Assembly: GCF_001669775.1 (NCBI RefSeq)
Contig: NZ_LXWK01000011.1
Coordinates: 930,001 to 994,000, forward strand
DNA from: Rheinheimera sp. SA_1
Lineage (GTDB): Bacteria; Pseudomonadota; Gammaproteobacteria; Enterobacterales; Alteromonadaceae
Reading direction: 5' to 3'
DNA: 64,000 bases
How positions within the stretch are numbered: position 1 is the stretch's first letter; every line of letters starts with the position of its first letter. Below, in pieces: positions 26,400 through 64,000 of the stretch. A program made the position numbers and the translations under genes. The notes beneath the pieces are model-generated. The model had not been told where the DNA came from, did no database searches, and saw nothing but the letters and a program-made list of their open reading frames with translations.

Positions 26400-26400
26400 C

Positions 26401-27820: not shown

Positions 27821-28087
27821 CATTCAATAGACCCGTAAATCTGCAAGAATTAGCTCTGCGAACCCGTCTTACAGCTTCTGCTTATGCAACCGCCAGCCTG
27901 TACTATCAGGTTATTAACGTAGCACACCACCTACACCTTTAACAGAAACTATGTACCTTAAATGCTAGCAATTTTTGGAAAAAATTAGGAACTCACAAGT
28001 TCAATCCTTGTATTTGTCCTTTGATATTGAGCGGCAAAACTCAGGACATGCCCCTCGGGTTTAACGGCAACTAAGCGGACCAACCTC

Positions 28088-29936: not shown

Positions 29937-29941
29937 GCCGG

Positions 29942-34676: not shown

Positions 34677-36056
34677 TCAAATAAAAATTGATTGCGCCGG
34701 AACTTCAAAAATTGAAGTGTATTGTGCCCCTTTTGCAGAATTCACAACACCACTCCCTGTATCCATTTTCATTAACCTAACGCCAGCACCACCATAATCG
34801 CCACCAAAGTTAAAAAAACCAAATATATAGTTATGCAAAGCCAGTTTTCCATCAGGCTCCGGCGCATAAAAATGATCAGACGGGCAGTATTGCTGCACAA
34901 TCCAGTCTTTAGACTTTCTGGCAGCCGATAAAATATTCCGCCAGGAAGTGTCGGTCATAAATCGCCCGACATAAACATGATCACCACCAAAATAGCCATC
35001 CCTTTTTATGACAAAATTATCTTTGTTCTGTTCAACTTCGCGATATAACCAACTCAGATCTTGATTTATCACTGAATTTAATTCATCAGATAGATGATAC
35101 GTTGCTGGAATAAACTTATTAATGAAAGCTGACTCGCTTTTATCAAACTTGCCACAATTGTTGAGCCAATGCAGATTAGCAAAATTAGATTTATACCCTG
35201 CTATAAGGAAGGCTGGCATGTCAGGAAAAACGACTTTTTTTTGTTGATGCAACAAAACCATCATTTCAATTTTCGGATCGTGGTAGTCAAACTGAAATAC
35301 AGGAAAACTCAACACATCCATTTTTTTATTATGAAAAAAAACTCCTGTATCGCTGACTGATACATCATCCAGGGATTGAGTCCAAAAAACACTGATATCA
35401 AGGTCAAGCTCAACTAGTGCCATTTTAAAAAAAGGCAATGAAGTGCGCAGGTCTTCTACAGCATCTGTACTATCCAGAACGAACAATAGGTTGACTGATG
35501 GAACAGCATTGCATTTATCATTATTTGTCATTTGATAAACCAATTTTAAGAATTTTTCTAAAATTGGAGTGCATACTAAATTGCCACCACCACCGACTAT
35601 ATCTCTATAAGTTTCCACACAACGCAAAAGATGCCAACCGCCTATATTGGTGCCAGCGTTATATTCAATTAACTTGAAATTCCCTTTGGTCATAATTGCA
35701 TCATACCGACCAACAGATAGATGAACATCCATAGAGTTACGATTTGTAGAAATTAAATTTGAAATATCAATGCCGTAAGCTGCTACTGAAAAATCAAAAT
35801 AGTCCTCTGAAATTATAAAAAGAGACTTGTGAAGCAAAGAAGTAACAACCTGACATATACCTCGCATATCCCTGACTATTTTGTCATTAATAACTACAGG
35901 CCAAGGCGATATAAAATTCCTTAATGATTCGTAGGCTGGAGGTAACTCACAACTCCGAATCTTTTGCTGCTGAGCAACAATAAGGTCAGGCGATAATATC
36001 ATTCTATTGATAAAATCAGTGTTGAACTTTGATAATTCTGCTGATTGATTAAGCAT
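34677..36056 (-). CDS. Circularly permuted ATP-grasp-like protein, last gene of NRPS operon
   Basis: 459 residues from ATG 36056, which follows CCGGAGT; an upstream in-frame ATG lies in the gap and is rejected. The sequence resembles circularly permuted ATP-grasp or glutathionylspermidine-synthase-like proteins. LIEYNAGTNIGGWHLLR, NFVIKRDGYFGGDHVYVGR (Lys for ATP, Gly-rich loop) and late GAGVRLMKMDTGSGVVNSA fit the metal/ATP-binding segments. Such enzymes join carboxylates to amines via acyl-phosphates. Here it could tailor the peptide product, for example by adding an amine or amino acid. Similarity is weak and by eye, so the function is inference. It lies 58 bases after the permease gene in the same orientation. 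Confidence 0.6.
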   Translation of the reverse strand: MLNQSAELSKFNTDFINRMILSPDLIVAQQQKIRSCELPPAYESLRNFISPWPVVINDKIVRDMRGICQVVTSLLHKSLFIISEDYFDFSVAAYGIDISNLISTNRNSMDVHLSVGRYDAIMTKGNFKLIEYNAGTNIGGWHLLRCVETYRDIVGGGGNLVCTPILEKFLKLVYQMTNNDKCNAVPSVNLLFVLDSTDAVEDLRTSLPFFKMALVELDLDISVFWTQSLDDVSVSDTGVFFHNKKMDVLSFPVFQFDYHDPKIEMMVLLHQQKKVVFPDMPAFLIAGYKSNFANLHWLNNCGKFDKSESAFINKFIPATYHLSDELNSVINQDLSWLYREVEQNKDNFVIKRDGYFGGDHVYVGRFMTDTSWRNILSAARKSKDWIVQQYCPSDHFYAPEPDGKLALHNYIFGFFNFGGDYGGAGVRLMKMDTGSGVVNSAKGAQYTSIFEVPAQSIFI

Positions 36057-36114
36057 AATTGTAGACTCCGGTAACGCGTTATGATGGCCCTGTTTGAAAC
36101 AGGGCCAGTACAAA

Positions 36115-38613
36115 TTAGTTTTCTCTCAGAGCTTCACTTGGTGACAATTCAATCGCACGTCTGGTCGGGATTAAAGCTGCTATGACTGCTATAACCAATA
36201 CAACCAGCGGTACTGTGATAAATACCAACATGTTCGATGCATTAGTGATACTGATGTGCTTTGCAATTAACTGGTTGAAATACACAGAGCAAAGGATGCC
36301 TATAGGTAATGACAAAAGTACATTGACTGTGCTTGTTTTGACAAAAAATACAATAATGTTGCTGTCTGTCGCACCTAATGCTCTTCTGACACCAATTTCA
36401 TGCTGCTTTTGCTGTATCACATTAGAAATAACTCCGTAGATACTAATAGAAGCAAGTAGCAGTGATAATAATCCGCATGCCAAGAATAACTTGCCGACAG
36501 CATCATTCATCATGCCATTTTTGTTAATACGATCATCGAAAGACTGAATGTCGTAAATACCAACCTGCGGGTCAAGAGCTTTCCGCACCTCGTCTAAAAC
36601 CTTCATAGCCGGTGAAATAGCCCCGTCGTAGTACACGGCTATTTGCATGGTATGACTCGACCAAATCGTTCTCTGTGATAGAGGAATGTAGGCAGAACCA
36701 CGATCCTGTGTTTTAAAACCAAATGGGTTGTTGTTATATACATCCTCGGTCACAGCCACCACAGTCATCCACGGCATGTGCTCTTCAGTCATCCAGTTCA
36801 TGGCAGACCAACGTCCTAACCGAAGACGTTTTCCAACTGAATTTTGATTTGGCCACAAGCGGTCAGCCAGCGTTTTCGTAATGATTACAACCCGTTCACT
36901 GTCTGGTGTATCTGATTGACTGAAGTATCGCCCTTCTAATAAGTTAACGCCCATAGCTTCCAGCGAGCCTGTTTGTGCATAAACACGCACCGCCTGAATT
37001 CGATCTTCCGGATTCGCATACACGGCACCTTCAATCTCATAGGGTTGTACAAAAGAGCCATCCAGCGGGTAATCGCTGGGCAGTCGGGATACTGCGGCAA
37101 CTGACCGAATATTTGCTGCGGCTTCAAGATTGCGAACAAAATTACCATAGTATTGCGACATTTCTTCCAATGTCTGATATTTGGCTCGCGGCAACTGAAT
37201 CGTCGCTGTAAGTGCGTTTTTTGTGACAACACCATAGTCTACTTTGCTGTTGATATAATTAGACGACACCATGACCAAAGACGAGATCAGCACTAGTACA
37301 GAAAGTATGACCTGCGAACATACCAGAAGAGTAGAAATAAACGCGACTTTCGTTCCTTGAGCACCTCTGGTTCCGTCTTTCAAGTCTTCGATAAAGTTAC
37401 CTTTTGCGGCTTTTATGATAGGTACTACACAAATCAAAAGAACTGTAACTGTCAGACTTAATGGAATATAAAAATAACTCTCTGCAGAGATCCTAAGATC
37501 TAACCAAAACGGAGCAGCATTATTATACATATAGTTCAAAAGAAACTGTTCGGTAAATTCCAAAGCACCAATCGCCAGAGCTATTCCTATCAAACAAGCT
37601 ATTGCGCAGAGAATGAAACATTCAAGAATTACCAATATGACAAGTCGGTAAAAAGGAGAGCCCAATGCAACCCGAATTGAGAACTCTTTTGTTCTCTCAT
37701 TCATTCTGGTTAAAACAAGGTTACCAACATTAATAATGCAAAGCGCCATAATTAGTACATTTATAATTTTCAATGATATCAGCAATCCATCTTTATCAGT
37801 CTCCACCCAAAGACTATTGGGGAAAGATGTTGCATAATAATAAAGGCCTGCAGTATTCGTTTGTGGAAACATTTCACGATATCTTGCAGAGATTAAAGAA
37901 AGCTCTTTATTTAGATCTTCTAAAGAGTGATTCTCTTTTAACATTGCATAACCGCCAACTTGCATACCACTCCTGCGCTGTGCAGGTTTTAGCCAAGCAT
38001 CCCGTAATGGCAACCAGATCTGGGTATCCCTCGGCATGGCATACCCAGCTGGCATCACACCGACAATACGGGTCTGACGCCCGTCTACCAGCAGCTTAGT
38101 GTCAAGCACCGAGGGGTCACCGTCAAAATCACGTTGCCAGACTTCATAGCTCAGCAACATAATTCGCTCAGCGCCATCAGAATTGTCTTCCGGAACAAAC
38201 AGCCGTCCTAGTACAGGTTGAGTTGCGGTGAGATTGAATAAATTCCATTCCGCAAACGCCGCACGATATTTCTGCGTCGCTTCCCTGAACGTTACATTTT
38301 GTTCCGTTAGTGCGTAAGCACCGGTATCTGTGACAGTCTGGACTTCCTGCCTGAGTTCAAAAAAATCGCGGGCATCGACACTATACAAACCTGCTTTACC
38401 GTGGTTCGCCGCTCCGTTGATTGCGACAATTCGCTCACCATTTTTTAATGGCAAATCGGCATGAACCATACTGTTAAGAATGGAAAAAGTAAAAATGCTT
38501 AATGCTAACCCTATCGACATCACAAAAATGATTAACAGTGACAAACGGATTCTTTTTTTGATCGATTGGATCACATACTTTATGTCAATGGCTAAATTCA
38601 TCATCCACCTCAT
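36115..38613 (-). CDS. MacB/FtsX-type ABC transporter permease (double-domain)
   Basis: 832-residue permease with two MacB-PCD/FtsX units. A first transmembrane helix near residue 25 is followed by a large periplasmic domain (about 50-280). Three helices follow, then a second helix and periplasmic domain (about 430-690), and final helices containing IQQKQHEIGVRRALGATDSN, the FtsX hallmark, and ending IPTRRAIELSPSEALREN. Eight helices in a single chain suggest that it works as one unit with a separate ATPase, as in the ADOP-like permeases. The start overlaps the ATPase stop as ATGA (38613-38610); ATGs at 38604 and 38601 are alternatives. It likely exports the peptide made by the upstream NRPS genes. 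Confidence 0.9.
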   Translation of the reverse strand: MRWMMNLAIDIKYVIQSIKKRIRLSLLIIFVMSIGLALSIFTFSILNSMVHADLPLKNGERIVAINGAANHGKAGLYSVDARDFFELRQEVQTVTDTGAYALTEQNVTFREATQKYRAAFAEWNLFNLTATQPVLGRLFVPEDNSDGAERIMLLSYEVWQRDFDGDPSVLDTKLLVDGRQTRIVGVMPAGYAMPRDTQIWLPLRDAWLKPAQRRSGMQVGGYAMLKENHSLEDLNKELSLISARYREMFPQTNTAGLYYYATSFPNSLWVETDKDGLLISLKIINVLIMALCIINVGNLVLTRMNERTKEFSIRVALGSPFYRLVILVILECFILCAIACLIGIALAIGALEFTEQFLLNYMYNNAAPFWLDLRISAESYFYIPLSLTVTVLLICVVPIIKAAKGNFIEDLKDGTRGAQGTKVAFISTLLVCSQVILSVLVLISSLVMVSSNYINSKVDYGVVTKNALTATIQLPRAKYQTLEEMSQYYGNFVRNLEAAANIRSVAAVSRLPSDYPLDGSFVQPYEIEGAVYANPEDRIQAVRVYAQTGSLEAMGVNLLEGRYFSQSDTPDSERVVIITKTLADRLWPNQNSVGKRLRLGRWSAMNWMTEEHMPWMTVVAVTEDVYNNNPFGFKTQDRGSAYIPLSQRTIWSSHTMQIAVYYDGAISPAMKVLDEVRKALDPQVGIYDIQSFDDRINKNGMMNDAVGKLFLACGLLSLLLASISIYGVISNVIQQKQHEIGVRRALGATDSNIIVFFVKTSTVNVLLSLPIGILCSVYFNQLIAKHISITNASNMLVFITVPLVVLVIAVIAALIPTRRAIELSPSEALREN

Positions 38614-39320
38614 GCTACTGCCGATTTAAGCGATGCAACATCTTCACAAACTTTGCCATCATGCAAACGGATTTGTCGTGTGGCACCTTGCACGGATCTA
38701 GGGTCATGGGTAACAACGCAGATTGTAGTTCCTTGCTTATTCAATTTATCGAGCAGTTCGACTATCGCCAGTGCATTCTGAGAATCCAGGTTACCGGTAG
38801 GTTCATCGGCCAATATGATCTTTGGCGATCCGGCAATCGCTCTGGCAATCGCAATCCGCTGTTGTTGTCCGCCTGATAATTGTGAAGGCAAATGCTTGGC
38901 CCGGTGCTCCATATTAACTTTCAATAAAGCACTTTTGACCATATCGGCACGCTGACTTTTCGTAAGATGATTACGATAGGTCAGTGGCAGTTCAATATTT
39001 TCTTCAACAGTTAAATCGCTAATCAAATTAAACGACTGAAATACAAAACCAATCATTTCATTACGGATGTTTGCCTGGTGGTTACGTGATAAATCTGAGA
39101 CATCACGTCCATTCAACAAGTATTGCCCATCCGTTGGTTTATCCAGCAAACCCAATATAGAAAGTAATGTTGATTTCCCACAACCTGACAATCCAACAAT
39201 AGATACATACTCGCCCGCATCTATTTTAATATTTATATTGTCTAAGGCCAGAGTTTCAACTTCTTCTGTCTGGTATATCTTAGTAATATTGGATAACGTG
39301 ATTACATTGGTATTATTCAT
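38610..39320 (-). CDS. ABC transporter ATPase (MacB/LolD-like)
   Basis: 236-residue ATPase subunit. Walker A is GLSGCGKSTLL, the Q-loop VFQSFNL, the signature PSQLSGGQQQRIAIARAI, and Walker B ILADEPTGNLDS with a following VTHD switch histidine. These are the standard features of LolD/MacB-type mechanotransmission ABC ATPases. ATG 39320 has GGGGAA upstream. It follows the HlyD adaptor by 12 bases and overlaps the permease start by 4 bases. Together the three form a MacAB-type exporter, driving transport across the envelope with an outer-membrane channel encoded elsewhere. Confidence 0.95.
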   Translation of the reverse strand: MNNTNVITLSNITKIYQTEEVETLALDNINIKIDAGEYVSIVGLSGCGKSTLLSILGLLDKPTDGQYLLNGRDVSDLSRNHQANIRNEMIGFVFQSFNLISDLTVEENIELPLTYRNHLTKSQRADMVKSALLKVNMEHRAKHLPSQLSGGQQQRIAIARAIAGSPKIILADEPTGNLDSQNALAIVELLDKLNKQGTTICVVTHDPRSVQGATRQIRLHDGKVCEDVASLKSAVA

Positions 39321-39332
39321 TTTATTCCCCGT

Positions 39333-40595
39333 TTAATTAAGGCGAACCATTTCATGTGAGCCCCAAGCCGACGTATCGGATACAACAATCCGATCACCAG
39401 GCTTGAGCCCTTCTTTTATTTGAATGATGTCAGCGGAAGCTTCACCGAACGACACAGCTGTCAGCGCCACTTCGCTGCCTCCCCCAGTCAATTTATAAAG
39501 CCTGGTTTTTGAGTTGCTTTGCACGTATACCGGCCGTCTGACATACAAAGTATTTTGGATATCTGTAATGTTGATCAGACCATCCACACTCAGATTCATC
39601 CTTGACTCTGCCGGTAACGGCCCTGTCAGATCAATATCGACCTGCACTGTGCCATTAGTTACCCCCGGATGGATCCGAATCACATGACCACTGATTTTCG
39701 AACTTCGGGTGTCAATTTCAACACTTTGATTTATTTTGACCTGTTGGATCTGGATCTCCGGGACCTGCAACTCAGCGATTAATTCATCTTTTCGTGCCAA
39801 CGTCGTAATATTGCTACCCAACACTAATTCCTGGCCAGGTTCAATCAGCACCGTCTGTACCACACTGTCAAATTCAGCCCGGATGTTCAGCTCATCAACC
39901 CTTTGTTGCAGTGATTGCAAAGACTTTTCCAAAATATCAAGTCGAGCCAGGATAGCTTCTTTTTGTGAAACAACGTTTTTCTCCTGAATCGCAATGCGTT
40001 TTTCCTGTAAAGTCTTGCGGAGCTCAAAGCGTCTGGATTCAGATTCAGCCCGGATAAAGTCCAAGCGGGAAATAGCCCCGGTTCCATTATTATTTAACAT
40101 CTCCAATGCTTCATAAGTTTTTCTGGCAGCGATATAATCGACGTCAGCTTCAAGCAACAAAGCTTTTTGTTCCTCCAGCTGATTATCCTGTTCAATCAGT
40201 TCAACTTTTGCCTCAATCTGCGCAATACCTAACTGCAACCGTGCTTCTTCTAACTCTTGTACCAGCTGCGGATTACTTAATACCGCAATTAAATCTCCTT
40301 TTTTTACTTCATCGCCTGCTTTACTCAGCAACTGCTCAACCCTGCCAGCAGATTTTGCCGAGATCCAACGAATATTTCTGGCGGCAAGCTCCCCGGAAGC
40401 TCTGATTTGGATATTCAACTGCCCTTGCTTTACTTCATCCAGCAGCACGGTGTCCCGTTTAACTACATACGCCGAGCTTCCGAGACTGAGCCAATACAAG
40501 GCGGCAACACCGGAAGCCGCCGCAACAACAATAAAGCTGTACTTTTTTATCCGAGTTAGAAAATTACTTTTTTCTTTCTGTTTGATTCTATCCAT
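39333..40595 (-). CDS. HlyD/MacA-family periplasmic adaptor
   Basis: 420-residue membrane fusion protein. One N-terminal transmembrane helix (about residues 18-38) follows a basic start. A lipoyl half SKAGDEVKKGDLIAVLSNPQ comes next, then a long coiled coil (about 115-235, Glu/Leu/Arg-rich) and the second lipoyl half RAEFDSVVQTVLIEPGQELV. Beta-barrel and membrane-proximal domains complete it, ending KEGLKPGDRIVVSDTS. It links the MacB-like permease to a TolC-type channel for export of the NRPS product. ATG 40595 is the only good start; the gap of 30 bases after the cysteine desulfurase gene suggests the same operon. Confidence 0.92.
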   Translation of the reverse strand: MDRIKQKEKSNFLTRIKKYSFIVVAAASGVAALYWLSLGSSAYVVKRDTVLLDEVKQGQLNIQIRASGELAARNIRWISAKSAGRVEQLLSKAGDEVKKGDLIAVLSNPQLVQELEEARLQLGIAQIEAKVELIEQDNQLEEQKALLLEADVDYIAARKTYEALEMLNNNGTGAISRLDFIRAESESRRFELRKTLQEKRIAIQEKNVVSQKEAILARLDILEKSLQSLQQRVDELNIRAEFDSVVQTVLIEPGQELVLGSNITTLARKDELIAELQVPEIQIQQVKINQSVEIDTRSSKISGHVIRIHPGVTNGTVQVDIDLTGPLPAESRMNLSVDGLINITDIQNTLYVRRPVYVQSNSKTRLYKLTGGGSEVALTAVSFGEASADIIQIKEGLKPGDRIVVSDTSAWGSHEMVRLN

Positions 40596-40625
40596 AAATT
40601 ACTCTGTCAGAAGCATGAAAAAAAT

Positions 40626-41849
40626 TTACAACAAGGCACTTACCAGTTCATCTAAAGAATCGAAGAAATAATCGATATCCTGAAATCTGGTATAAATGTA
40701 TCCCGAGATTCTTATAACCTGCCCTGAAGTTAAAGAACTTACGTAAGGCTGCGCACATAAATGACCATTTCTACACATGATTCCAAAGGAGTCACTTAAA
40801 TATCGAGCCAAATCATCGAGATTATTCATCCCTTCAATTGACATACTCAATACTGCCCCCCGGTCAGCATCAGGTCTTGGGTCAACGACCCGTAAGTAAC
40901 TGCGCTGCATAGCTTTAGCCAGCATATAGCTGCCTAACTCACGATCATGCTGTTCAATCCAGTTAAAACCAATTTTATGCAAATAATCTATGGCAGCGCC
41001 AAATCCAAGTACACCGGAAATATTTGGCGTACCTGCTTCAAAACGATGTGGGATCTTCCTTAAATTGAAGGAACTAAACTCAACCCAGTCCACCATGCCA
41101 CCACCAAGTTTGAGAGGTTTCAGTTGGTTCAAGAGTTCAGCTTTTCCGTAAAGCACTCCGACGCCAGTGGGACCCAACATTTTATGGGCTGAAAAAGCGA
41201 GGAAATCGATGTTTAGCGCTCTGACGTCAATCCTTCGATGTGGTATGGACTGAGCAGCATCAACCACCACCAAGGCTCCAACTTCTTTTGCCATTGCAAT
41301 CATAACTTCGAGATCGAGGTAAATGCCGGTCACATTAGAGCAATGGGTCAGGCAAACGACTTTAGGGTTCTTTGCCAGCAGCGTTGCATAATGCTCTAAA
41401 TCCGGATTCTGACATGCTTTTAACTGCAAATATTCAACCTTTGCACAATCAAACCAAGGCAAAAGATGTGAGTGATGAGAGAATGGCAAACAAACAACCA
41501 GGTCATCTTTTGATAGATTCAACCCATGACTAACAATATTCAACGCTTCAGTTGCATTGCTTACAAAGACAATCTCGTTACCGCTACCACCAATCAGGTT
41601 AGCAATTTTACTACGTACCTGCTCAAATTTATTTGAAACATCCTCCAACGAAAAATATTTTCCGCGATGGATGTTTGCTGAGATACCAAGATAGTAGTCA
41701 CAGACCGCTTCGACCATTTGTGTCGGCTTTAAAGTCGTTGATGCACTGTCTAGATAAACACACTGTTTACCATCAACTTCTTTATATAAACCAGGAAAGT
41801 CCGCAAGCAGCGCTTCCTGACAGTTAATTTCTGTTTTTATCTCCAGCAT
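40626..41849 (-). CDS. SufS/CsdA-like cysteine desulfurase (class V aminotransferase fold)
   Basis: 407-residue PLP enzyme. The N-terminal YLDSASTTLKP, cofactor Asp in VVVDAAQSIPH (Asp197), PLP-Lys in FSAHKMLGPTGVG (Lys223) and the catalytic-Cys loop CRNGHLCAQP (Cys365) line up with SufS, where the Cys that carries the persulfide is about residue 364. So it should remove sulfur from L-cysteine, or selenium from selenocysteine. It is inside an NRPS operon with a PaaK-like adenylating enzyme, not with suf/isc genes, so it is unlikely to serve iron-sulfur clusters and may supply sulfur for tailoring. No sulfur carrier (ThiS/MoaD/SufE-like) is visible. It starts 10 bases before the end of the ligase gene region. 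Confidence 0.88.
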   Translation of the reverse strand: MLEIKTEINCQEALLADFPGLYKEVDGKQCVYLDSASTTLKPTQMVEAVCDYYLGISANIHRGKYFSLEDVSNKFEQVRSKIANLIGGSGNEIVFVSNATEALNIVSHGLNLSKDDLVVCLPFSHHSHLLPWFDCAKVEYLQLKACQNPDLEHYATLLAKNPKVVCLTHCSNVTGIYLDLEVMIAMAKEVGALVVVDAAQSIPHRRIDVRALNIDFLAFSAHKMLGPTGVGVLYGKAELLNQLKPLKLGGGMVDWVEFSSFNLRKIPHRFEAGTPNISGVLGFGAAIDYLHKIGFNWIEQHDRELGSYMLAKAMQRSYLRVVDPRPDADRGAVLSMSIEGMNNLDDLARYLSDSFGIMCRNGHLCAQPYVSSLTSGQVIRISGYIYTRFQDIDYFFDSLDELVSALL

Positions 41850-41858
41850 GTTGATTCC

Positions 41859-43142
41859 TTAATATTTATCTGTCATTGCGCGGACGCACTGGAATTTACC
41901 TGAACGTTCCGTTGCGATATAACCGACTAATTGATGTTCAATCTCATGCTGCTTTCCAAGCAACTGTTGCAACGGAGCTAGGATATCTAACAGTTTCACA
42001 GCCTGATAATGTTGATTGACGATCAATAGCAGGCAAGATTTATCTGCTGATAATTGTGTGAATTGATACAAGTCGAGCCAGTCTGGCGCGCCAATTGCCT
42101 GATGGATTTGATAAGGGTGAATATGAGGATATTCTGTAGTACTCAGTTGTTCGCTGACACGACCAGCCCAGTCCACCGCAGGGTGAGGCAGACCACATGG
42201 GCAATCCTGCGGTTTTAATACAAAAGTATCACCTGTCCGGTAGCGAATATGGGGGACGGCACCGTTATCAAGACTACTAATCAGCAGCTCCCCGACTTCA
42301 CCGGGAGTGGTTATCCGGTCGCCACTCAGCAGCTCTGTTAAATAACAATCGCTGTTCAGATGCAGTTGTCCATGTGGGCAATCGAGAGCCAGCCACCCCA
42401 TCTCAGACGATGACACTAGCGCCGAAAATACGGTTCCGGTATACCCAAAACTGGCAAATGCATCAAGAATTTGTTTACGGTTTAATGGGGTTATAGCTGT
42501 GTAAGTCGCCACTAAAGGCGCCTGAGGCACGCGGATCCCTCGTTTTATTGCATGTCTCATCAACAGTGCAAAATGCGTGGGATCGACATAGTACAAATTA
42601 GGTTGATACAAACAAATCTCTTCCAGAGCACGGTCGAGCATAAACTCCGGCGTCGTCAATAGATCATGATAAACCGGCAATACCAGCGTGCCGTCACTGA
42701 GCATCCTGTCCTGCATAGAACTGTTTGGGTTTGCACACTCCACATCAGAGCAATTTGGCGCCGCAAAACGGCAAATCTTGCGGGGGGTCGCGGCAAATGC
42801 TGCTTCGACTGCCGGATGAATACCGGTACAGGTCAAAGCTCTATCCATCAGTAACATCCCTAGTTCATAGGTGATTAACCGTTCACCGGATGTACCGGAA
42901 CTTTGGCTTTTCACCAGCCCCTCATCGCTGAGTTTATAGCCTGCAGCCAGCACGCCAGCCGGAAAATTACGCCGATAATCTTTTTTCTCTGTCGGCGGAA
43001 TCCGCTGAATATCTTCCGGTTCAATGATGTCATCCGGCGTTAAACCAGCTGCCGCCAGGTGCTTGCTATAAAAAGGTACCCGCTCGAAGGCATATTCCAG
43101 TTCCTGTATAAACCGATCAAACTGCAATAAATTAATCAGCAT
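41859..43142 (-). CDS. PaaK-like adenylate-forming enzyme
   Basis: 427-residue enzyme of the phenylacetate-CoA ligase/coenzyme-F390 synthetase branch of the ANL superfamily. It starts with an N-terminal FERVPFYSKHL segment. The Ser/Thr-Gly-rich phosphate loop is QSSGTSGERL. The nucleotide-binding core is VSSSEMGWLALDCPHG, and HIRYRTGDTFVLKP is the A7-like motif. CPCGLPHP is the cysteine-bearing hairpin usual in this subfamily. No carrier domain is attached, so it works as a free-standing ligase. ATG 43142 overlaps the NRPS stop by 7 bases, proof of translational coupling. Its acyl substrate is unknown; it may load a starter acyl group or activate the peptide carboxylate, and the neighbouring desulfurase suggests a thio-acid step. 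Confidence 0.85.
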   Translation of the reverse strand: MLINLLQFDRFIQELEYAFERVPFYSKHLAAAGLTPDDIIEPEDIQRIPPTEKKDYRRNFPAGVLAAGYKLSDEGLVKSQSSGTSGERLITYELGMLLMDRALTCTGIHPAVEAAFAATPRKICRFAAPNCSDVECANPNSSMQDRMLSDGTLVLPVYHDLLTTPEFMLDRALEEICLYQPNLYYVDPTHFALLMRHAIKRGIRVPQAPLVATYTAITPLNRKQILDAFASFGYTGTVFSALVSSSEMGWLALDCPHGQLHLNSDCYLTELLSGDRITTPGEVGELLISSLDNGAVPHIRYRTGDTFVLKPQDCPCGLPHPAVDWAGRVSEQLSTTEYPHIHPYQIHQAIGAPDWLDLYQFTQLSADKSCLLLIVNQHYQAVKLLDILAPLQQLLGKQHEIEHQLVGYIATERSGKFQCVRAMTDKY

Positions 43143-52045: not shown

Positions 52046-52054
52046 TATTGTGAC

Positions 52055-55498: not shown

Positions 55499-58400
55499 AA
55501 CGTGACCACCATAGTCTCTGTACTTTGTTTTGGCTGACACTGTTGTAGTCGGGAGAAATAGCGAGCACTTTCGATTAACATTGCCTGCTGTTGGATTGTC
55601 TGATGTGTCAGTAAATCTTGCATTTTTAGTTCCACATCAAACTGCCGGCGCAGACTAACCATTAGTTTAATCAGCAACAAGGAATGCCCGCCAGACTCAA
55701 AAAAACCAGCAGCGGCACTGAGTTGGGCTGAAGGAACTGCTAACAAATCAGCCCAGAGTCCGGCCAATTCAATTTCAGTATCCGTTTTTGCTGCCACCAA
55801 CGACACGGCCAACATCGACGAGGTTGCTGGCGGTAAAGATTTTTTACAAATTTTACCGTTGGCAGTCAGTGGCCAGCTATCAATCAGGACAAAGGCCGAC
55901 GGCACCATGTAGGACGGTAACTGTCTGGCCAATTCCACTTTGACCGCTGACAGTACCTCAGCAGCCTGACTACTGCCCTCAGATGTCAATTTCACGTAAG
56001 CAACCAGGTGATCACTACCAGCCTGTCGACTGGCAATAACCAAAGAGGAGTCAACGTGCAGTTGCTGGTTCAGCACCACTTCAATTTCCCCCAATTCGAT
56101 GCGGAATCCACGAATTTTAACCTGGTGATCGGCACGGCCGATAAATTCGATCAGTCCATCCGGCATATAACGACCGAGGTCGCCTGTGCGATACAGCCGG
56201 ATGCCCAGTTGCTGATGCCAGATAAACTGTCGGCTGGTCAAAGCTTCATCAGCACAATAACCACGAGCCACCCCTCTGCCACCAATGTAAAGTTCACCGG
56301 TTACGCCGGCAGGTAACAACTGCTGTCGCTGATCGAGAATGTAGAATGACTGACCATACATTGCACGACCATAAGGAACACTTCGCCACTCCACAGGATC
56401 TGATGTAATAGGATAATGAATAGACCAAATTGCGGCTTCAGTCGCACCTCCCAGACTATGCACCTGACACCCTGGCAATAACCGCCAGAGCCGTGCGGGC
56501 AATGAAGGTGCTATCCAGTCCCCACTCAGTAACATATGGCGCACAGGCGCGAGGCAGGTGCGTCCGAGATATTCCAGTTGATCAGCCAGCAACCCTGCCG
56601 CAGCCGGCACAGTATCCCAGATAGTCACCTGATGCTGTTCCACTAATTCCAGCCAATGTCCCGGATCGGTCGCGCGTCTCGCGTCGGGTAGCACAACTGC
56701 ACCGCCGATAGCCAGCATGCCAAAAATATCAAACACGGACAAATCAAAACTAAGTGCCGAAACCGCAAGTACGCGATCCTGTGCATTCAACTGATAGTAA
56801 CGAATCATCTCCAGCAAAGTGTTCATTACACTGTGATGTTCAATTTCGACCCCTTTCGGTTCGCCTGTTGAGCCTGATGTAAAAATCACATAAGCCAGTG
56901 TGTCTGCTTGCTGGCGCAGGTAACGCGACTGTGTTGCTGTTGCTGGCAACTGAGTCGCAAGCAACGCCTGACTGGCAACTGTCTTGATATTCAGATTGTT
57001 ACCATTGGGTAATTGTAATTGATGATCAGGCTCGACTATCAGATTCAGCCGACACGCCGCTTTCTGACATATTTTTTCGCAGCGTTGTGACGGCCAGTTT
57101 GTTTCCATCGGCAGATAAACGCCGCCAGCCATTAAAATGGCCAAAACGGCAATAACCTGATGCCGCCCTTTGGGCATTCGCACACCAACCCGCTCACCTG
57201 GATTCAGACTCTGCTCGTGCAACAGCTCGCAGAGCAATGCAGCAGCCTCAAATAACTGCCGATAACTCATTTGACCATCTTGATCAATCAAAGCAGTCTG
57301 CTCAGGCGCAACATCCACCTGTTGTAAAAACAATTGATGTAACAGTAAATCTGTCCGATGACCATTGCTGGGTTGATTCCAGACCTTCAATTGCTGGTGA
57401 ACCTCCTGCTCAGATAACAGCTGCAACCTCTCCATTGGCAGCGTCAATACAGCCGGGGTGGATACCAGCTGCTGGACTAACCGGCAAAAGTGGTCACTCA
57501 TTTGGCGGATCCGTATCTCGCTAAACAAACTAACGTCATAAATCCAGCTGATGTTGATCCCATCAGCATCCAGTCGAAAATCTAAATTCAAATCAAATTT
57601 AGCCTGAACAGGACCCGAGCCAACCGCACTAAACTCTACTGCAAGCGCTGCCATTGGATCAGTATCCGGCAGGTTCGGCGTGTAATCGGTATCAGCAGTC
57701 AGCATAATTTGGAAGACTGGGGTATGCGCAGTTGTTCTAGGAACTTGTAACAAATCAGCTAATTGCTCAAAGGGTACGTCGCTGTTGGCCTGCGTCTCAT
57801 GATGAACCCGACGCACCTGAGCCAGTAAGTCACCGACCGTAGGTTGTGCCATGTTAAGTCGCAGCACCAACGTATTAATAAAAAAGCCAACCAGCCCATT
57901 GAGTTCAGGTTTAGGCCTGTTCGTCAGCGGAATACCAATTACCACATCCTGCTGATTGCTATGGCGACTGAGTAGCACTGCAAACAGCGCATGCATCATC
58001 ATAAATGGCGTTAATCCACTTTCGCGTGCAAGTGCCAGCAAGGCTGTTGAAGTGTTGCCAGCTAATTTTGTTTGAACCAAAGCCCCTTGATATTGCTTAA
58101 CCGGTGGCCGATTTTTGTCTAGTGGCAAGCTATGTACTGGCGGAATATCTGCCAGTTGTTGCAGCCAATAATCCAGTTGCAGCTGATAGTCAGATCGCGC
58201 CAACATTTGCCGCTGCCAGTGCGCATAATCGGCGTACTGTATAGGTAACTCAACCAAATTTAACGGGGTGGCCTGTAATTCTGCCTGATAAAGACTGACA
58301 AACTCGCGATGCAAAATTGCCATTGACCAGCCATCCGCAGCAATATGATGCATGGTCAGCAGCAAGTATCCCTGATGTTTGGTCGGATCTGTGCGTCCAG

Positions 58401-58986
58401 CCGCAGTACTGACAAAGACGACTTTCAGCATAGGATCAACTCGCAAATCAAATGCTGTCGCAGCGAGTTCAGCTGCCAGTTTCGCCAGCCAGACGTCAGT
58501 TTCAGAGACCTGTTCTTTTGGTAAATGAATCAGCTGTACTGGTACTTCGGTGGCTAGCTGGATGCATTGCTTTGGAACGCCGTCTTCTCCACTTCGATAT
58601 GTGGTGCGTAAAACCTCATGCCGCTGCACTATGGTCGTAAATACACGCTCAGCGATCTGCAGATCAAAATCACCGCTGACCCCCAATACAAACTGCATGT
58701 TGTACTCGGTGCTGCCTCCTTGCAACTGATCGATCATCCACAACCGTTCTTGACCATAAGATAACAATAAAGGCTCTGTTCGAGGCTGCCGGCTGATCAG
58801 CGGTTCGGTTTGCCGTTGCTCTGACTGATGCAAGAGCTGCACTAAATCGTCTTTCAGCAACTTAATATACCCGGCCAACTCCGGTGTTATTGCCCCCGGG
58901 GCAGCCTGAGTTTTCAGGCTCCCTTGGTCCAAATATACTTTCACATTATGCTGACCTAAAATTGTCAGCAGTTCCTGTAACTTCAT
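55495..58986 (-). CDS. NRPS, TubC-C-A-T (Cys-like code)
   Basis: 1163 residues, one module. It has an N-terminal TubC-type docking segment, C with HHIAADGWSM (near base 58350), A with FTSGSTGEPKG (56880) and T with FESGGHSLLLIK (55690). The A code is DLFDLSLIWK, close to the Cys code DLYNLSLIWK used by pyochelin/yersiniabactin-type modules, and SLGGATEAAIWSI is also typical of those. Yet its C domain has the HHxxxDG condensation motif rather than the DxxxxD of cyclisation domains, so no thiazoline is expected at this step. The A10 motif is NGKICKK, unusual where NGKIDRK is normal, with the catalytic Lys kept. It starts 5 bases before the stop of the previous gene. Confidence 0.93.
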   Translation of the reverse strand: MKLQELLTILGQHNVKVYLDQGSLKTQAAPGAITPELAGYIKLLKDDLVQLLHQSEQRQTEPLISRQPRTEPLLLSYGQERLWMIDQLQGGSTEYNMQFVLGVSGDFDLQIAERVFTTIVQRHEVLRTTYRSGEDGVPKQCIQLATEVPVQLIHLPKEQVSETDVWLAKLAAELAATAFDLRVDPMLKVVFVSTAAGRTDPTKHQGYLLLTMHHIAADGWSMAILHREFVSLYQAELQATPLNLVELPIQYADYAHWQRQMLARSDYQLQLDYWLQQLADIPPVHSLPLDKNRPPVKQYQGALVQTKLAGNTSTALLALARESGLTPFMMMHALFAVLLSRHSNQQDVVIGIPLTNRPKPELNGLVGFFINTLVLRLNMAQPTVGDLLAQVRRVHHETQANSDVPFEQLADLLQVPRTTAHTPVFQIMLTADTDYTPNLPDTDPMAALAVEFSAVGSGPVQAKFDLNLDFRLDADGINISWIYDVSLFSEIRIRQMSDHFCRLVQQLVSTPAVLTLPMERLQLLSEQEVHQQLKVWNQPSNGHRTDLLLHQLFLQQVDVAPEQTALIDQDGQMSYRQLFEAAALLCELLHEQSLNPGERVGVRMPKGRHQVIAVLAILMAGGVYLPMETNWPSQRCEKICQKAACRLNLIVEPDHQLQLPNGNNLNIKTVASQALLATQLPATATQSRYLRQQADTLAYVIFTSGSTGEPKGVEIEHHSVMNTLLEMIRYYQLNAQDRVLAVSALSFDLSVFDIFGMLAIGGAVVLPDARRATDPGHWLELVEQHQVTIWDTVPAAAGLLADQLEYLGRTCLAPVRHMLLSGDWIAPSLPARLWRLLPGCQVHSLGGATEAAIWSIHYPITSDPVEWRSVPYGRAMYGQSFYILDQRQQLLPAGVTGELYIGGRGVARGYCADEALTSRQFIWHQQLGIRLYRTGDLGRYMPDGLIEFIGRADHQVKIRGFRIELGEIEVVLNQQLHVDSSLVIASRQAGSDHLVAYVKLTSEGSSQAAEVLSAVKVELARQLPSYMVPSAFVLIDSWPLTANGKICKKSLPPATSSMLAVSLVAAKTDTEIELAGLWADLLAVPSAQLSAAAGFFESGGHSLLLIKLMVSLRRQFDVELKMQDLLTHQTIQQQAMLIESARYFSRLQQCQPKQSTETMVVTL

Positions 58987-58990
58987 TGTA

Positions 58991-61900
58991 TTACCACTCC
59001 AGTTCTTCTAACCGCTCGTCGGACGTTACCAGAGTGCGGTTACTGAGTACCCGCATTGCAGTCAGTTCATCAATATATGCAGCCAGCGCTTGAATCGTGG
59101 GTCGTTCAAAAATATCCCGTACTTTCAATTCGATACTCAGTTGCTGACTGATCTCGTTGTTCAAACGCGTCACCAGCAAAGAGTGTCCACCCAACGAGAA
59201 GAAGTTTGCTGTGATGCTAAGTTCGGGTTGGTTTAACACTTTTTGCCAAATCTGCTGTATAGCAATTTCTGTCGTGCTGACGGGCGCAACATAGTCGTCC
59301 TGTCGTATCGCGACCCATTTGGGTAGAGCCTTTTTATCAATCTTGCCATTGCCAGTCAGAGGAAACTTTTCCAGCAACATAAAAGCAGAAGGCACCATAA
59401 AGGCTGGCAACTGCAGTTCCAGTTGTTGCCGGATAGCAGGTATTAACTGCCGGGCCACTGCCCTGAGCTGTGGCGCATTAACAAAATTACGGTGTTCAGC
59501 AGACTGACAGGGCTGGATCATCGGCAGGGCAGTCAAATCCGAGCGCGTCAGAATCAAATCAAGTCGCGATTTGTTGGTTTGATCCCAGGTGAACTGCAGT
59601 TGATATCCATAGTCCTGTGCCAGTTTTTCCAGTTGTTGCAATTGATCACAGCGGGTTTGGCCAACTGCAGCTTTCAGTGCCTGTATCTGACAGTTTTGGT
59701 GACTGAGCAAACTGTCAAATGCACGAATATCGGCATGAATCCTTGGATTAGTCATCCCGGTAACACCAAAATATGGTAACTGCTGTTGCGCAAGTAACTG
59801 TTCAAAAGCAGCTAGATCCTGCCAGCGATACCATTGAACAACCCGCGATGCCTGAACCGGAGTCTTGCGCAGTATCACATCATAGCGATAGCGCATCATC
59901 TCATTCAGCGACAATCCTGGTTTCAGCAAGATATCAACTTGGCCGATCGATAAATCCTGCTGCAACAATGCCGAAAAATAAGCCGGACTGAACAACAACT
60001 CCTCTTCATGCTGAATAGCTGAAGCTGCCCGTTGATACAGTTGCTCGGTTGACACCTCATCATCTGCTTTACAAATCTCAATTGATGCACTGAATGCATC
60101 CAGCAAATCCAGATTACGGATATCACCTAACAGGATGTTACCGCCAGGAGCCAGGCATTGCAGCATGTTTAACAGCACTTGCCGGAAGTAGTTGTAACTT
60201 GGGAAATACTGAGCCACCGAGTTAAGTATGATGGTGTCGTAATTCCCGCCATGAAATGCCTGCAGTGCTGTCGCATCTGCCTGCTGCAATGTCACATGCT
60301 GCCAGCCTAGTTTACTGATACCGTGCTGTACTTGCTGTAACACCGTCGCGGATATATCAATAGCCGTGACATGCTCGCACTGTGCAGCATAGCGGAACAA
60401 CAACATGCCGGTGCCGACCCCAATTTCCAGGACTCTGGATGGTTTCAGCTGTTGAATCCGATCCACTGTTTGATCAACCCACTCTTTCATCTCCACCAGT
60501 GGGATTTGCATATCGCGATAACTACACTGCCAACCGGTAATATCGGTTTCAGGTTCTGCATCCGATTGACCCGCTTTTGCATAAGTACTGTCAAACACAT
60601 CCTGCCATGCAGCTACTCCATGGTCATCATGAACCCCGTCATAGTGATCCAATAAGTGCTGGGCAGGCCGCAGATAAGCGACTAAGGCGGTGTCTCCGGC
60701 AGACGATGTCTGCGCCAATACCAAAGCCTCTTCCACCTCTGAACTTTGCTGGATTACATGTTCGACTTCACCGGTTTCGATCCGATATCCCCTGACTTTG
60801 ACCTGTGCATCGATCCGACCAATATACTCCAACTCGCCGCTGGGCAACTGCCGGACCAAATCACCAGTTCTGTACCAGCATCGCGAGGCTTCACCAGCAA
60901 AACTATGTGTGACAAACCGACTTGCTGTCAGCTCAGGGCGTCCCAGATATCCTTGTGAAACGCCAGCTCCTGCCACCCATAACTCTCCTTCAACATTTAC
61001 CGGCTGACATTGCTGACGAGCATTACAAACCACTGCAGTCAAATCAGGCAATGGCCGCCCGATAATCGATTTACTGTTCGCTTCAGCGACTACTTGATGA
61101 TACGTAACGTGCACCGTCGTTTCAGTGATCCCATACATGTTTATCAAACGGGTATGTGCACTATGGCTAGCGTCAAACCAAGCCGACAATTTATTAAATG
61201 CCAGAGCCTCTCCACCAAAACAGACAAAACGCAGTTGATGTGGTTGAGAATGGTTGCACAAAGGTGCGATCAACGGATAAAAAGCTGAAGGCGTCTGGTT
61301 CAGCACTGTCACTGCTTCTTTGCATAATAAATCAGCAAATGCGGCGGCAGAACCGACCACATCCGCTGGTACTATCACCAGGCGACCGCCATACAACAGC
61401 GCTCCCCAGAGTTCCCAGACGGAAAAGTCAAAAGCGTATGAATGAAACAGAGTCCAACAATCCGTTTGGTTAAAACCAAACAGCTCATCCGAGCTACTGA
61501 ACAGGCGACTGACATTGCCATGTCCGACCATCACACCTTTTGGCGCTCCCGTTGAACCTGACGTGTAAATCACATAAGCAAGGCTCTGGTCATCGACACT
61601 GTCTGCCAATGGCAAGTTATCTGATGAAAACACCATCTGCTGCAGTTGTGGTTGATCCAAATCCAGACGACTGACCGCAGTTGGCAATGCCAGCACAATA
61701 TGCGATTGAGTCACGACATAACGTACGGATGAATCTTCAATCATGTATTGAAGCCGAGATTCAGGATAAGCCGGATCAAGTGGTAAGTAAGCTGCTCCAG
61801 TTTTCAGAATAGCCAGTATCGCAATCACCATCTCCAGCGAGCGTTCAACTGACAACCCCACCAGCATATGCGGCTTCACACCTTGTTGTAGCAGGTACCG

Positions 61901-64000
61901 CGCCAACTTGTTTGCACTTAGATTTAGTTGCTGGTACGTCAGGCTGGCATCACCAAACACTAAGGCCGTCTTGTCTGGTTGTAGGGCAGCCTGCCTTTCA
62001 AATTGTCGGAACACCAACTCTGAACCAGCAACCGGGGCAGCTGCCAGCAAAGTAGGTAGATCCTGTGCCGCTACTAAAGCAACAGATTCGATCCCAGCTG
62101 TATCATTGGCCGTTAGCTGCGCTAACAGCAACTGATAACTTTCAGCCAGCCTAATGATTGTCTGTTCGGTAAACAAGTCCGTATCAAACGCCCAGTACAG
62201 AGACAACGCCCCGTTTGTTTCCTCAATCATCAGGTGTAGGTCAAACTTGCTGTCCAGATGTTGTCGTTTGACCGGTTCAAGCTTCAAAGCTGGTAGTTCG
62301 ATACTACCCAGATCGTTATTTTGTAGCACAAACATAATCTGAAACAATGGATTATGGCTGTTTGTTCGTGCGGGATTCAGCTCCTCCACTAACAGATCAA
62401 ATGGCAAATCCTGATGCGTGAAAGCATCCAGAATCATTTTTTTATTTTGTTGCAGAAAATCGGTAAATGCCGGATCGCCATTCAAATCACTGCGTAACAC
62501 GACGCTGTTGACAAAAAAGCCAATCAACGACTCTAAATCCTGATGCTCACGCCCTGAGACCGCAGTACCAATCACCACATCAGTTTGATTACTGTACCGA
62601 CCAATCAAGATGGCAAATACCGATTGCAAATACATAAATAAGCTGACGTTGTGCTTGAGACATTGGGCTTGGATCTGCCCAGTCAGACCGACCTCTAACC
62701 TTTGCTGCCAGGCTTTTCCACAAAAACGTCGCTGCGCTGGTCTGACTTTATCAAGCGGCAGATTATGCAACTGTGGCATAAATTGCAGCTGTTTGCGCCA
62801 GAACTGCACACTGTCATTGACCTGAGCACCACTGAGCCAGTGGGTTTGCCATAATGCAAAATCGGCATACTGGACTGGCAAAGGTGCTAATGGTTGTATC
62901 TGGTCACCGGCAAAGTGCTGGTACAGAGCGCCGAACTCTCGTAGCAGGATCCCCATCGACCAGCCATCCGAAATGACATGGTGCATATTAAACAGCAATA
63001 CTGAACACTGTTCAGCGCACCGAATCAATTTAAATCGAATCAGTAACTCGTGCTGCAAATCAAACACATGACGCGATTCCTGATCCAGCAACGACATAAT
63101 CCGTTGCTGCTGGCTCGTTTCGTCGTCGTGCCTCAAATCAAACTGCTCTAACGGCAAGGCCACCTGTGCCCGGATCAATTGCCACGGCTGCCCACCCTCC
63201 TCATAAAAACCGGTTCGAAGCGCTTCGTGCCTTTCCAGCAAAGCGTCCAGCGCCAGATACAGGGCTTGTTCATCAAGCTGGCCACGTATGGTAAAGCCCC
63301 CTGGCATATTGTATTCACTACTACCTTGACTGTAACGGTCAAGAAACCACAAGCGTCGTTGTGCGTACGATAATGGCAGTTGTTCTGGCCGATCCATCAC
63401 TTTCAAATCGATTGCAATGCGCCGGTGTGCCTGCATAATAAACGATGCCAAGGCCTCAATGGTCGGCTGTTCAAAGATGAGCCGCAATGGCAACTCAACC
63501 TGCCATGTCTGGCGTACCGCACTGATCAAACGAATAGCAATCAGAGAATGGCCACCAAGCTCAAAAAAGTTATCCTGTATCCCCACTTGCCCGACCTGAA
63601 GTAACTTCTGCCACAGTTGACAGAGCTGCTGTTGCATCGGGTCCCTCGGTGCGACATAACAGCGCTGGCTGGCAGCAGTTACGTCGAGTGATAGCAGCGC
63701 TTTTTGATCAACTTTACCATTGGCAGTTAGTGGCAATTGTTTTAGCATCACAACCGCTGTTGGGATCATGTAATCAGGTAACTCCCCAGCTAAGGCTGTT
63801 TTTACCGCAGAGTTGATATTTTGAGAGTTAATGTCATGTTGGCTGGCTATTGCCACAATAAAGGCCGCTAACTGACGATGCTCAGCATGCCCCACCACAA
63901 GCACTATCGCTTCCTCCACCCAAGCTAACTGATTTAAACGCGCTTCGATTTCACCAAGCTCAATACGAAATCCTCGCAGCTTCACCTGATGATCAACCCT
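58991..64000 (-). CDS. NRPS, partial: A(end)-T-C-A-MT-T (N-methyl-threonine module)
   Basis: The 5' part lies beyond the window; the frame is open to base 64000, where it reads the A8 motif RGFRIELGEIE. Domains seen are the A-domain end, T with ELGGHSLIAIR (near base 63555) and C with HHVISDGWS (62975). Then A with YTSGSTGAPKG (61565), an inserted N-methyltransferase with SAM motif VLEIGVGTGMLLFRYA (about 60410), the A10 end, and T with SLGGHSLLVTRL (59190). The A code is DFWNCGMVHK, one change from the Thr code DFWNIGMVHK, so N-methyl-L-Thr is predicted. The methyltransferase is inserted between A8 and A10, as usual for N-methylating modules. No E or TE domain; the C-terminal acidic tail (ERLEELEW) probably docks to the next protein. 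Confidence 0.93.
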   Translation of the reverse strand, partial: RVDHQVKLRGFRIELGEIEARLNQLAWVEEAIVLVVGHAEHRQLAAFIVAIASQHDINSQNINSAVKTALAGELPDYMIPTAVVMLKQLPLTANGKVDQKALLSLDVTAASQRCYVAPRDPMQQQLCQLWQKLLQVGQVGIQDNFFELGGHSLIAIRLISAVRQTWQVELPLRLIFEQPTIEALASFIMQAHRRIAIDLKVMDRPEQLPLSYAQRRLWFLDRYSQGSSEYNMPGGFTIRGQLDEQALYLALDALLERHEALRTGFYEEGGQPWQLIRAQVALPLEQFDLRHDDETSQQQRIMSLLDQESRHVFDLQHELLIRFKLIRCAEQCSVLLFNMHHVISDGWSMGILLREFGALYQHFAGDQIQPLAPLPVQYADFALWQTHWLSGAQVNDSVQFWRKQLQFMPQLHNLPLDKVRPAQRRFCGKAWQQRLEVGLTGQIQAQCLKHNVSLFMYLQSVFAILIGRYSNQTDVVIGTAVSGREHQDLESLIGFFVNSVVLRSDLNGDPAFTDFLQQNKKMILDAFTHQDLPFDLLVEELNPARTNSHNPLFQIMFVLQNNDLGSIELPALKLEPVKRQHLDSKFDLHLMIEETNGALSLYWAFDTDLFTEQTIIRLAESYQLLLAQLTANDTAGIESVALVAAQDLPTLLAAAPVAGSELVFRQFERQAALQPDKTALVFGDASLTYQQLNLSANKLARYLLQQGVKPHMLVGLSVERSLEMVIAILAILKTGAAYLPLDPAYPESRLQYMIEDSSVRYVVTQSHIVLALPTAVSRLDLDQPQLQQMVFSSDNLPLADSVDDQSLAYVIYTSGSTGAPKGVMVGHGNVSRLFSSSDELFGFNQTDCWTLFHSYAFDFSVWELWGALLYGGRLVIVPADVVGSAAAFADLLCKEAVTVLNQTPSAFYPLIAPLCNHSQPHQLRFVCFGGEALAFNKLSAWFDASHSAHTRLINMYGITETTVHVTYHQVVAEANSKSIIGRPLPDLTAVVCNARQQCQPVNVEGELWVAGAGVSQGYLGRPELTASRFVTHSFAGEASRCWYRTGDLVRQLPSGELEYIGRIDAQVKVRGYRIETGEVEHVIQQSSEVEEALVLAQTSSAGDTALVAYLRPAQHLLDHYDGVHDDHGVAAWQDVFDSTYAKAGQSDAEPETDITGWQCSYRDMQIPLVEMKEWVDQTVDRIQQLKPSRVLEIGVGTGMLLFRYAAQCEHVTAIDISATVLQQVQHGISKLGWQHVTLQQADATALQAFHGGNYDTIILNSVAQYFPSYNYFRQVLLNMLQCLAPGGNILLGDIRNLDLLDAFSASIEICKADDEVSTEQLYQRAASAIQHEEELLFSPAYFSALLQQDLSIGQVDILLKPGLSLNEMMRYRYDVILRKTPVQASRVVQWYRWQDLAAFEQLLAQQQLPYFGVTGMTNPRIHADIRAFDSLLSHQNCQIQALKAAVGQTRCDQLQQLEKLAQDYGYQLQFTWDQTNKSRLDLILTRSDLTALPMIQPCQSAEHRNFVNAPQLRAVARQLIPAIRQQLELQLPAFMVPSAFMLLEKFPLTGNGKIDKKALPKWVAIRQDDYVAPVSTTEIAIQQIWQKVLNQPELSITANFFSLGGHSLLVTRLNNEISQQLSIELKVRDIFERPTIQALAAYIDELTAMRVLSNRTLVTSDERLEELEW

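Follow-up and report, generated by a model that had tools for sequence, protein, structure and literature searches.

The stretch of DNA analyzed here (the window) comprises 64,000 nucleotides of Rheinheimera sp. SA_1, positions 930001-994000 of contig C1 (NZ_LXWK01000011.1) in a genome of 5.16 Mb. Positions 34677-64000 of the window are filled by ten minus-strand genes in the list of open reading frames (ORFs). They belong to a nonribosomal peptide synthetase (NRPS) cluster, in which a gene for a PaaK-like acid:AMP ligase adjoins one for a SufS-like cysteine desulfurase; this pair is our main subject. An earlier interpretation made from the letters alone (the sequence-only reading) had described a tightly packed run, and the gaps from 34677 upward, 1, -4, 12, 30, 9, -7, 9, -46 and 4 bases, agree with it. 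Its "several 4-7-base overlaps" were a generous count, as there is one overlap of 4 bases and one of 7; a further one of 46 bases depends on the choice of start. The run extends about 25 kb past the window end with six more genes, the outermost reaching genome position 1019386. Gaps in this part are -4, 14, 10, 31, 1 and 128 bases; given the last of these, membership in the run is least certain for the outermost gene. The whole run has 16 genes, about 55 kb and 11 adenylation (A) domains. The genes in the window are:

34677..36113, minus strand: ATP-grasp-like protein b, 478 amino acids (aa) from a TTG start (an internal ATG is possibly the true start), a paralogue of the 473-aa protein in the run beyond the window
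36115..38613, minus strand: ADOP/MacB-type ABC permease (Pfam and NCBIfam matches)
38610..39320, minus strand: ABC transporter ATPase of the MacB/LolD/DarD type (Pfam and NCBIfam matches)
39333..40595, minus strand: membrane-fusion (periplasmic adaptor) protein (Pfam and NCBIfam matches)
40626..41849, minus strand: SufS-like cysteine desulfurase with Lys223, His126, Arg360, Cys365 and Arg380 intact, and the subfamily residue Cys170
41859..43142, minus strand: PaaK-like acid:AMP ligase with C-terminal Lys416, Zn-type cysteines 255/314/316 and the subfamily-specific Cys131 and Cys136
43136..52045, minus strand: NRPS6, docking, C-A(DIPRVGHVGK)-T-C-A(DAKNISAVNK)-T-E-TE
52055..55540, minus strand: NRPS5, docking, C-A(DVWHFSLIDK, which we take to be Ser-like)-T
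55495..58986, minus strand: NRPS4, docking, C-A(DLFDLSLIWK, which we take to be Cys-like)-T
58991..64000, minus strand: 3' part of NRPS3 (the gene continues past the window), with presumably Thr-like, Cys-like and methyltransferase-bearing Thr-like modules

In the direction of transcription, the run opens with a type II thioesterase, a PvdQ/penicillin-amidase-type acylase, a cyclic-peptide ABC exporter, NRPS1, ATP-grasp-like protein a and NRPS2. It continues with NRPS3 (3686 aa in full), NRPS4, NRPS5, NRPS6, the ligase, the desulfurase, the adaptor, the ABC ATPase, the permease and ATP-grasp-like protein b.

The ligase and desulfurase genes form a conserved two-gene cassette. We checked co-occurrence, as the sequence-only reading had proposed: among 84,980 named species genomes, the scan detected 41 loci, and at 40 of them both genes were found side by side. 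The exception (L088) is an 88-residue ligase match without a desulfurase; L051 has a TauD-type gene between the two, and L087 shows the ligase in three pieces with a short desulfurase piece. Pair loci were found in, for example, Pseudomonadota, Myxococcota (Corallococcus) and Actinomycetota (Kitasatospora). Spacing between the two genes was at most 11 bases in 29 of the 35 loci with a settable start, a count that took the start nearest the ligase stop and so favored short distances; it was 42-52 bases in four Corallococcus/Thalassolituus loci. For 39 of the 40 pair loci (all but L052), the fetched stretch contained NRPS-type matches. These were weak (23-26%) at L058, L060, L061, L066 and L086, the one in L058 being a stand-alone AMP-ligase by Pfam. 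In a plasmid collection, 69 records matched the ligase; among the best 20 of these 69, the first four showed 38-41% identity over 96-97% and the fifth 26%. The same four headed the 117 records matching the desulfurase at E <= 1e-60, and in the three of them that are annotated the pair genes are neighbors in NRPS or NRPS-polyketide synthase (NRPS-PKS) clusters.

Over 43 pairs, the protein distances of the two partners correlate with r = 0.952, and 2000 label permutations reached at most 0.283; host ancestry contributes to this correlation. For comparison we took 43 other PaaK-like proteins, all from Gammaproteobacteria-level searches, and dropped one for its low profile score; no SufS-like gene was found within about 1.5 kb of the remaining 42. 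The pair is inherited as a unit, and a chance neighborhood is rejected on the 40/41 pairing, the 0/42 among the comparison proteins and the distance correlation. In profile searches at E <= 1e-60, the ligase subfamily was found in three of 345 genomes of the order (the window genome, G286 and G303; 582-622 bits), in the window genome alone among 369 of the class (582 bits, all others at most 147) and again in it alone among 398 of the phylum; the pair is therefore rare. Searches of an open-access library, judged by title and start of the abstract, listed no paper pointing to the pair and no cluster with this gene set; subscription papers and preprints may contain a description.

We give an even chance to the reading that the 16 genes are a lipo-initiated NRPS run carrying a conserved, carrier-free thioacid cassette of new design. 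The sequence-only reading had suggested that ligase and desulfurase jointly make a thiocarboxylate. Co-inheritance at about 40 loci, the desulfurase residues and the ligase cysteines speak for this idea, in which the chemistry is what we infer.

The ligase itself had no Pfam match at the 0.001 threshold, and its NCBIfam PaaK matches were weak, the best reaching 80.6 bits against the phenylacetate-CoA ligase equivalog cut-off of 700. Its relatives in the PDB are of PaaK type and include NatL2, AjiA1 and ClxA. A structure model with mean pLDDT of 90.9 gave PaaK-type ligases as best Foldseek matches (top 4rvn_B, E 4.6e-26, TM 0.75), and as modeled the protein has the PaaK fold. PaaK-type enzymes activate carboxylates, and on these chemical grounds we set aside the thioamide product considered in the sequence-only reading, for which we found no support. 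Cys131, Cys136 and Cys255 are invariant in 44 of 44 pair ligases, and Cys314, Cys316 and Lys416 are each present in 43. Among the 42 other PaaK-like proteins, Cys314 and the lysine occur in all and Cys255 and Cys316 in 36, whereas Cys131 and Cys136 occur in none. Judged by these residues and by profile score, the pair ligases are a separate PaaK-like subfamily. They share the fold, the C-terminal lysine and the Zn-type cysteines with NatL2, AjiA1 and ClxA, PaaK-family enzymes of secondary metabolism, but differ from these in their subfamily, in Cys131 and Cys136 and in their place beside a SufS-like gene.

The desulfurase scored 396.7 bits with TIGR01979, below the cut-off of 475.1. Lys223, His126, Arg360, Cys365 and Arg380 are invariant in 43 of 43 SufS-like proteins of the pair, and by its residues the protein has the pyridoxal phosphate (PLP) lysine, the persulfide cysteine and the flanking Arg and His of the SufS type. 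Residue matches, fold and family matches thus confirm a PaaK-branch enzyme beside a SufS-like desulfurase with Lys223 and Cys365. Like SufS/CsdA type II desulfurases, it has the family match, the PLP lysine and the catalytic Cys and Arg; unlike them, it falls below the curated cut-off, has the subfamily residue Cys170 and is accompanied by no SufE-like partner that we could recognize in the gene run. Cys170 is kept in 42 of 43 subfamily desulfurases and is replaced by Gln and Val in the two best PDB relatives. In the sequence it immediately precedes the SNV part of the PLP-site motif.

Given the desulfurase's relationship to the SufS family, the pair could meet a demand of the pathway for iron-sulfur or sulfide, with the ligase incidental. 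We consider this very improbable: other class V desulfurase-like genes are present in the genome, making the cluster desulfurase an extra copy; no Pfam radical-SAM or Fe-S domain was found among the cluster genes (three of the 16 have no Pfam match at all); and the distances of ligase and desulfurase correlate. A weak match of the desulfurase to the C-S lyase model EgtE (77.3 bits, cut-off 400) raises another possibility, namely that the ligase joins the carboxylate to free cysteine through its thiol group and the SufS-like enzyme cleaves the resulting S-acyl-cysteine as a C-S lyase, giving the same thiocarboxylate. Cysteine beta-lyases have been discussed for the sulfur-containing ends of photoxenobactin, as excerpts of PMC9396620 describe. 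We nonetheless regard this route as unlikely, as Cys365, Arg360 and Arg380 are kept in 43 of 43 proteins and a lyase would probably not need the persulfide cysteine.

Solved relatives of the ligase could point to a different role. NatL2- and AjiA1-type enzymes form esters, amides or carrier thioesters, and the pair might make no thiocarboxylate at all if the ligase loads or couples an unusual acid in one of these ways, the SufS-like enzyme making another building block or taking a hydroxylated amino acid as its substrate. Two observations favor this alternative: 30 of 40 pair loci have a TauD- or CmlA-type oxygenase within the fetched stretch, and the A domains beside the pair vary. We hold this alternative to be rather doubtful, because 10 of the 40 loci and the window cluster lack such an oxygenase in the searched stretch, pairing is near-strict, the desulfurase active site is complete and the subfamily cysteines are found in none of the 42 other PaaK-like proteins.

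Comparison with known thioacid systems sharpens what would be new about a carrier-free cassette. Excerpts of PMC6006322 describe thioacid formation in thioplatensimycin as using PtmA3, PtmU4 and sulfur-carrier proteins, with CoA activation and a type III CoA-transferase; the PtmA3/PtmU4 cassette is reported there to be widespread and thiocarboxylic acid natural products to be rare. Like that cassette (PMC6006322, excerpts), ours pairs a carboxylate-activating gene with one for sulfur transfer; in place of CoA activation, CoA-transferase and carrier, the window cluster has a PaaK-like ligase and a desulfurase. PDTC and thioquinolobactin belong with thioplatensimycin in this group. The type III CoA-transferase family (PF02515) had no match in the whole genome, and a control search matched 5 of 14 genomes. 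No sulfur-carrier gene accompanies the cassette, and the two ThiS matches in the genome lie on contigs C3 and C12, not on C1. These results rule out a known PtmA3/PtmU4-type cassette, and the analogies cited in the sequence-only reading do not match the cluster in detail. Photoxenobactin (pxb) is described in excerpts of PMC9396620 as a family of NRPS/PKS products with thiocarboxylic ends and cysteine sulfur, the end being proposed to arise by cleavage off-loading. Our cluster shares the NRPS-type machinery and, if the thioacid reading holds, would share a thiocarboxylic group and cysteine sulfur; the same excerpts describe no ligase/desulfurase pair for pxb. A bleomycin-like system was also considered and rejected, as the excerpts of PMC3777966 mention neither a desulfurase nor phenylacetate.

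If the cassette is a thioacid cassette, the following sequence of events may be proposed. The assembly line would make an acylated undecapeptide that is exported to the periplasm, where the PvdQ-like acylase would remove the acyl group and the MacAB-like pump would expel the peptide. The ligase would adenylate a carboxylate, either on the peptide or on one of its building blocks, a candidate being the acidic residue of NRPS6. Free cysteine would supply the sulfur, which the desulfurase would carry as a persulfide on Cys365. This persulfide, relayed to Cys131/Cys136 of the ligase or used directly, would attack the acyl-adenylate to give a thiocarboxylate. Persulfide attack on an adenylate has an analogy in the tRNA-thiolating enzymes MnmA and ThiI. 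By that analogy we tentatively entertain, as possible and below an even chance, a more specific version: the ligase may be a carrier-free thioacid synthase on an ANL scaffold, in which the desulfurase passes its persulfide to Cys131, this persulfide attacks the ligase's own acyl-adenylate and Cys136 helps release, the substrate being a small-molecule or peptide acid where MnmA and ThiI act on tRNA. The cassette would then be the hallmark of thiocarboxylate peptides, perhaps chelators of soft metals, that occur across three or more phyla.

Several points weigh against a thioacid cassette. Its thiocarboxylate is a prediction, and cysteine-derived sulfur alone would be no proof of it, because two Cys-like modules already supply thiols. 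No SufE-like, sulfur-carrier or reductase gene was recognized in the cluster. Conservation of Cys131 is partly built into the scan: all 40 loci match a pattern containing Cys131, 30 of them by that pattern alone and 10 by both patterns. Cys136 is absent from both patterns, and the six members found without a motif pattern (the window, three plasmid-collection records, G286 and G303) all have Cys131 and Cys136. In the ligase model, 131-137 form a helix and residues 131-140 are a less certain part, with mean pLDDT of only 66; two cysteines five residues apart on one helix would have poor disulfide geometry. No TauD/CmlA-type oxygenase was found in the window or the neighboring stretches, and the A domain adjoining the pair varies between loci, which speaks for no single shared substrate. 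Asp-like codes (..GHVGK or ..GHIGK) are present in 16 of 16 DUF6817-type loci (L044-L046 and 13 scan loci) and also in L051, L057, the window and the joined Aliikangiella cluster; DAKNISAVNK is present in five scan loci and the window. Other pair loci have neither within the fetched flank, so the codes establish no common substrate, and Pfam scans of simpler pair loci revealed no substrate. A two-enzyme carrier-free route, if true, would be a simple biocatalyst. As a search handle, the tandem of ligase and desulfurase with the PNCSDVEC motif leads to about 40 loci, some on conjugative plasmids, for which our open-access searches gave no description.

Surroundings of the pair elsewhere differ in complexity. 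A serine O-acetyltransferase gene (cysteine supply) stands beside the pair in L044, L045 and L069 (one Klebsiella, one Vibrio, one Serratia), and in Vibrio coralliilyticus pOCN014 a cysteinyl-tRNA synthetase gene (L045:24169-25539) borders the NRPS-PKS cluster that carries the pair, where it could provide self-protection or compensate for cysteine use. Such neighbors agree with a high consumption of cysteine, though there are only a few of them; open-access literature on DUF6817 and on cysteinyl-tRNA synthetase self-resistance offered nothing useful. In Klebsiella pneumoniae, pair-bearing NRPS or NRPS-PKS clusters lie on plasmids typed as conjugative (L044, L047); in L047 an IS5-type element separates the second NRPS gene from the DUF6817 gene. 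The simplest setting is that of small actinomycete loci (L085:8852-19749, also L083 and L081) with a PLP (PALP) enzyme, the ligase, the SufS-like enzyme, a stand-alone A domain and TauD, to which L085 adds an EamA-type transporter and a thioesterase. At L058, L060, L061 and L086, the genes that come after the pair are PvdQ-like, PvdE-like and AMP-ligase-like ones and those for a sulfotransferase and a CmlA-type hydroxylase.

The assembly line has three modules in NRPS1, one in NRPS2, three in NRPS3 (the last with a methyltransferase, MT), one each in NRPS4 and NRPS5 and two in NRPS6, followed by E and TE domains. Codes of the 11 A domains, extracted with a GrsA sequence as ruler, are in order DLFNNALTYK, DLFNNALTYK, IRWVFSLSDK, DILQYGMVWK, DFWNIGMVHK, DLYNWSLIWK, DFWNCGMVHQ (with MT), DLFDLSLIWK, DVWHFSLIDK, DIPRVGHVGK and DAKNISAVNK. 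We take these to specify Ala-Ala-X-Gly-Thr-Cys-MeThr-Cys-Ser-Asp(-like)-Z. Asp235 of an A domain normally holds the alpha-amino group, and the domain for residue X lacks it. The first C domain opens the line without an upstream A domain, and the product is predicted to be, probably, an acylated undecapeptide at first. All 12 C/E domains have HHxxxD-type motifs and none of them looks like a heterocyclization domain, so the Cys residues probably stay thiols. The Aliikangiella cluster (G286, identical in DNA to L049 where compared) shares with the window cluster Gly-x-Cys-Thr-Cys, Asp-like modules and DAKNISAVNK.

Export genes accompany both ends of the run. The PvdE-like cyclic-peptide ABC exporter scored 359.5 bits with TIGR01194, above the cut-off of 286.2. 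The acylase has a hydrophobic N-terminus and a GSN motif and is of Ntn-hydrolase type. Adaptor, ATPase and MacB/FtsX permease adjoin one another as in MacAB-type exporters, in agreement with the earlier assignment; ATPase and permease are separate genes, and the MacA and MacB equivalog cut-offs were not reached. Together with the lipo-type start, this set resembles the pyoverdine system (PvdE, PvdQ, PvdRT), with cyclic-peptide exporter, acylase and MacAB-like pump. Unlike in pyoverdine clusters, no other Pvd maturation gene was recognized, and the PvdQ equivalog score of 73 bits against a cut-off of 950 rules out membership; we keep pyoverdine as an analogy for export.

ATP-grasp-like proteins a (473 aa) and b are 24% identical. 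Protein b alone had no Pfam or NCBIfam match, and the profile of its family is weakly ATP-grasp (Ligase Cp1B, E 0.0019). Matches to CP_ATPgrasp_2, of the circularly permuted ATP-grasp ligases, were weak in four of nine family members (best 0.019) and one member matched GSH-S_ATP (0.0016); a single-sequence structure model of protein P0001 was uninformative (pLDDT 31.8). These matches are weak but consistent with an ATP-grasp fold. Among the 345 genomes searched in the order, six gave strong family matches and two others weak ones, and the class search added two weak matches only. In five of the six (window, G286, G303, G275 and G204) PvdQ-, PvdE- and NRPS1-like genes lie beside the ATP-grasp-like gene; the 19-kb contig of G019 shows NRPS genes only. 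In G275 (L030:55-2919) two ATP-grasp-like domains are fused in a 955-aa frame, where the window cluster has two genes. The pair is present in the window genome, G286 and G303 and absent from G019, G275 and G204; pair and ATP-grasp gene share a contig in the window genome and G286 and lie on different contigs in G303, where a link is not shown. The ATP-grasp gene, proposed earlier as a further tailoring step, thus belongs to a separable part of the cluster, with acylase, exporter and first NRPS, which three relatives have without the pair. Five of the six genomes show an unusual A domain as the last one ahead of the ATP-grasp gene: IRWVFSLSDK in both the window and G019, DPRHFVLRAK in G275, and a similar type in G286 as well as G303. 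The exception is G204, in which the gene precedes that of the acylase and adjoins a Thr-like module, with an IRWVFSLSDK module further on. This suggests, and does no more than suggest, that the substrate residue of the enzyme carries a second acid or amine.

The part of the cluster inside the window has a G+C content of 0.41-0.50, and most of the remaining window one of 0.50-0.55, except for a low patch at 24-28 kb; the cluster may therefore be acquired. This patch (24349-28417, about 0.38-0.41 between higher-G+C flanks) holds genes of unclear function. A LodA-type quinoprotein oxidase gene with an adjoining flavoprotein gene lies at 28731-31966, with about 2.7 kb between it and the end of the cluster. 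Farther off, at a distance of about 11 kb, a TonB-like gene (20824-21681) stands beside a likely TonB-dependent receptor gene (21797-23992, by reading), whose product contains CPNHMNPALSYI, presumably resembling copper-type outer-membrane receptors.

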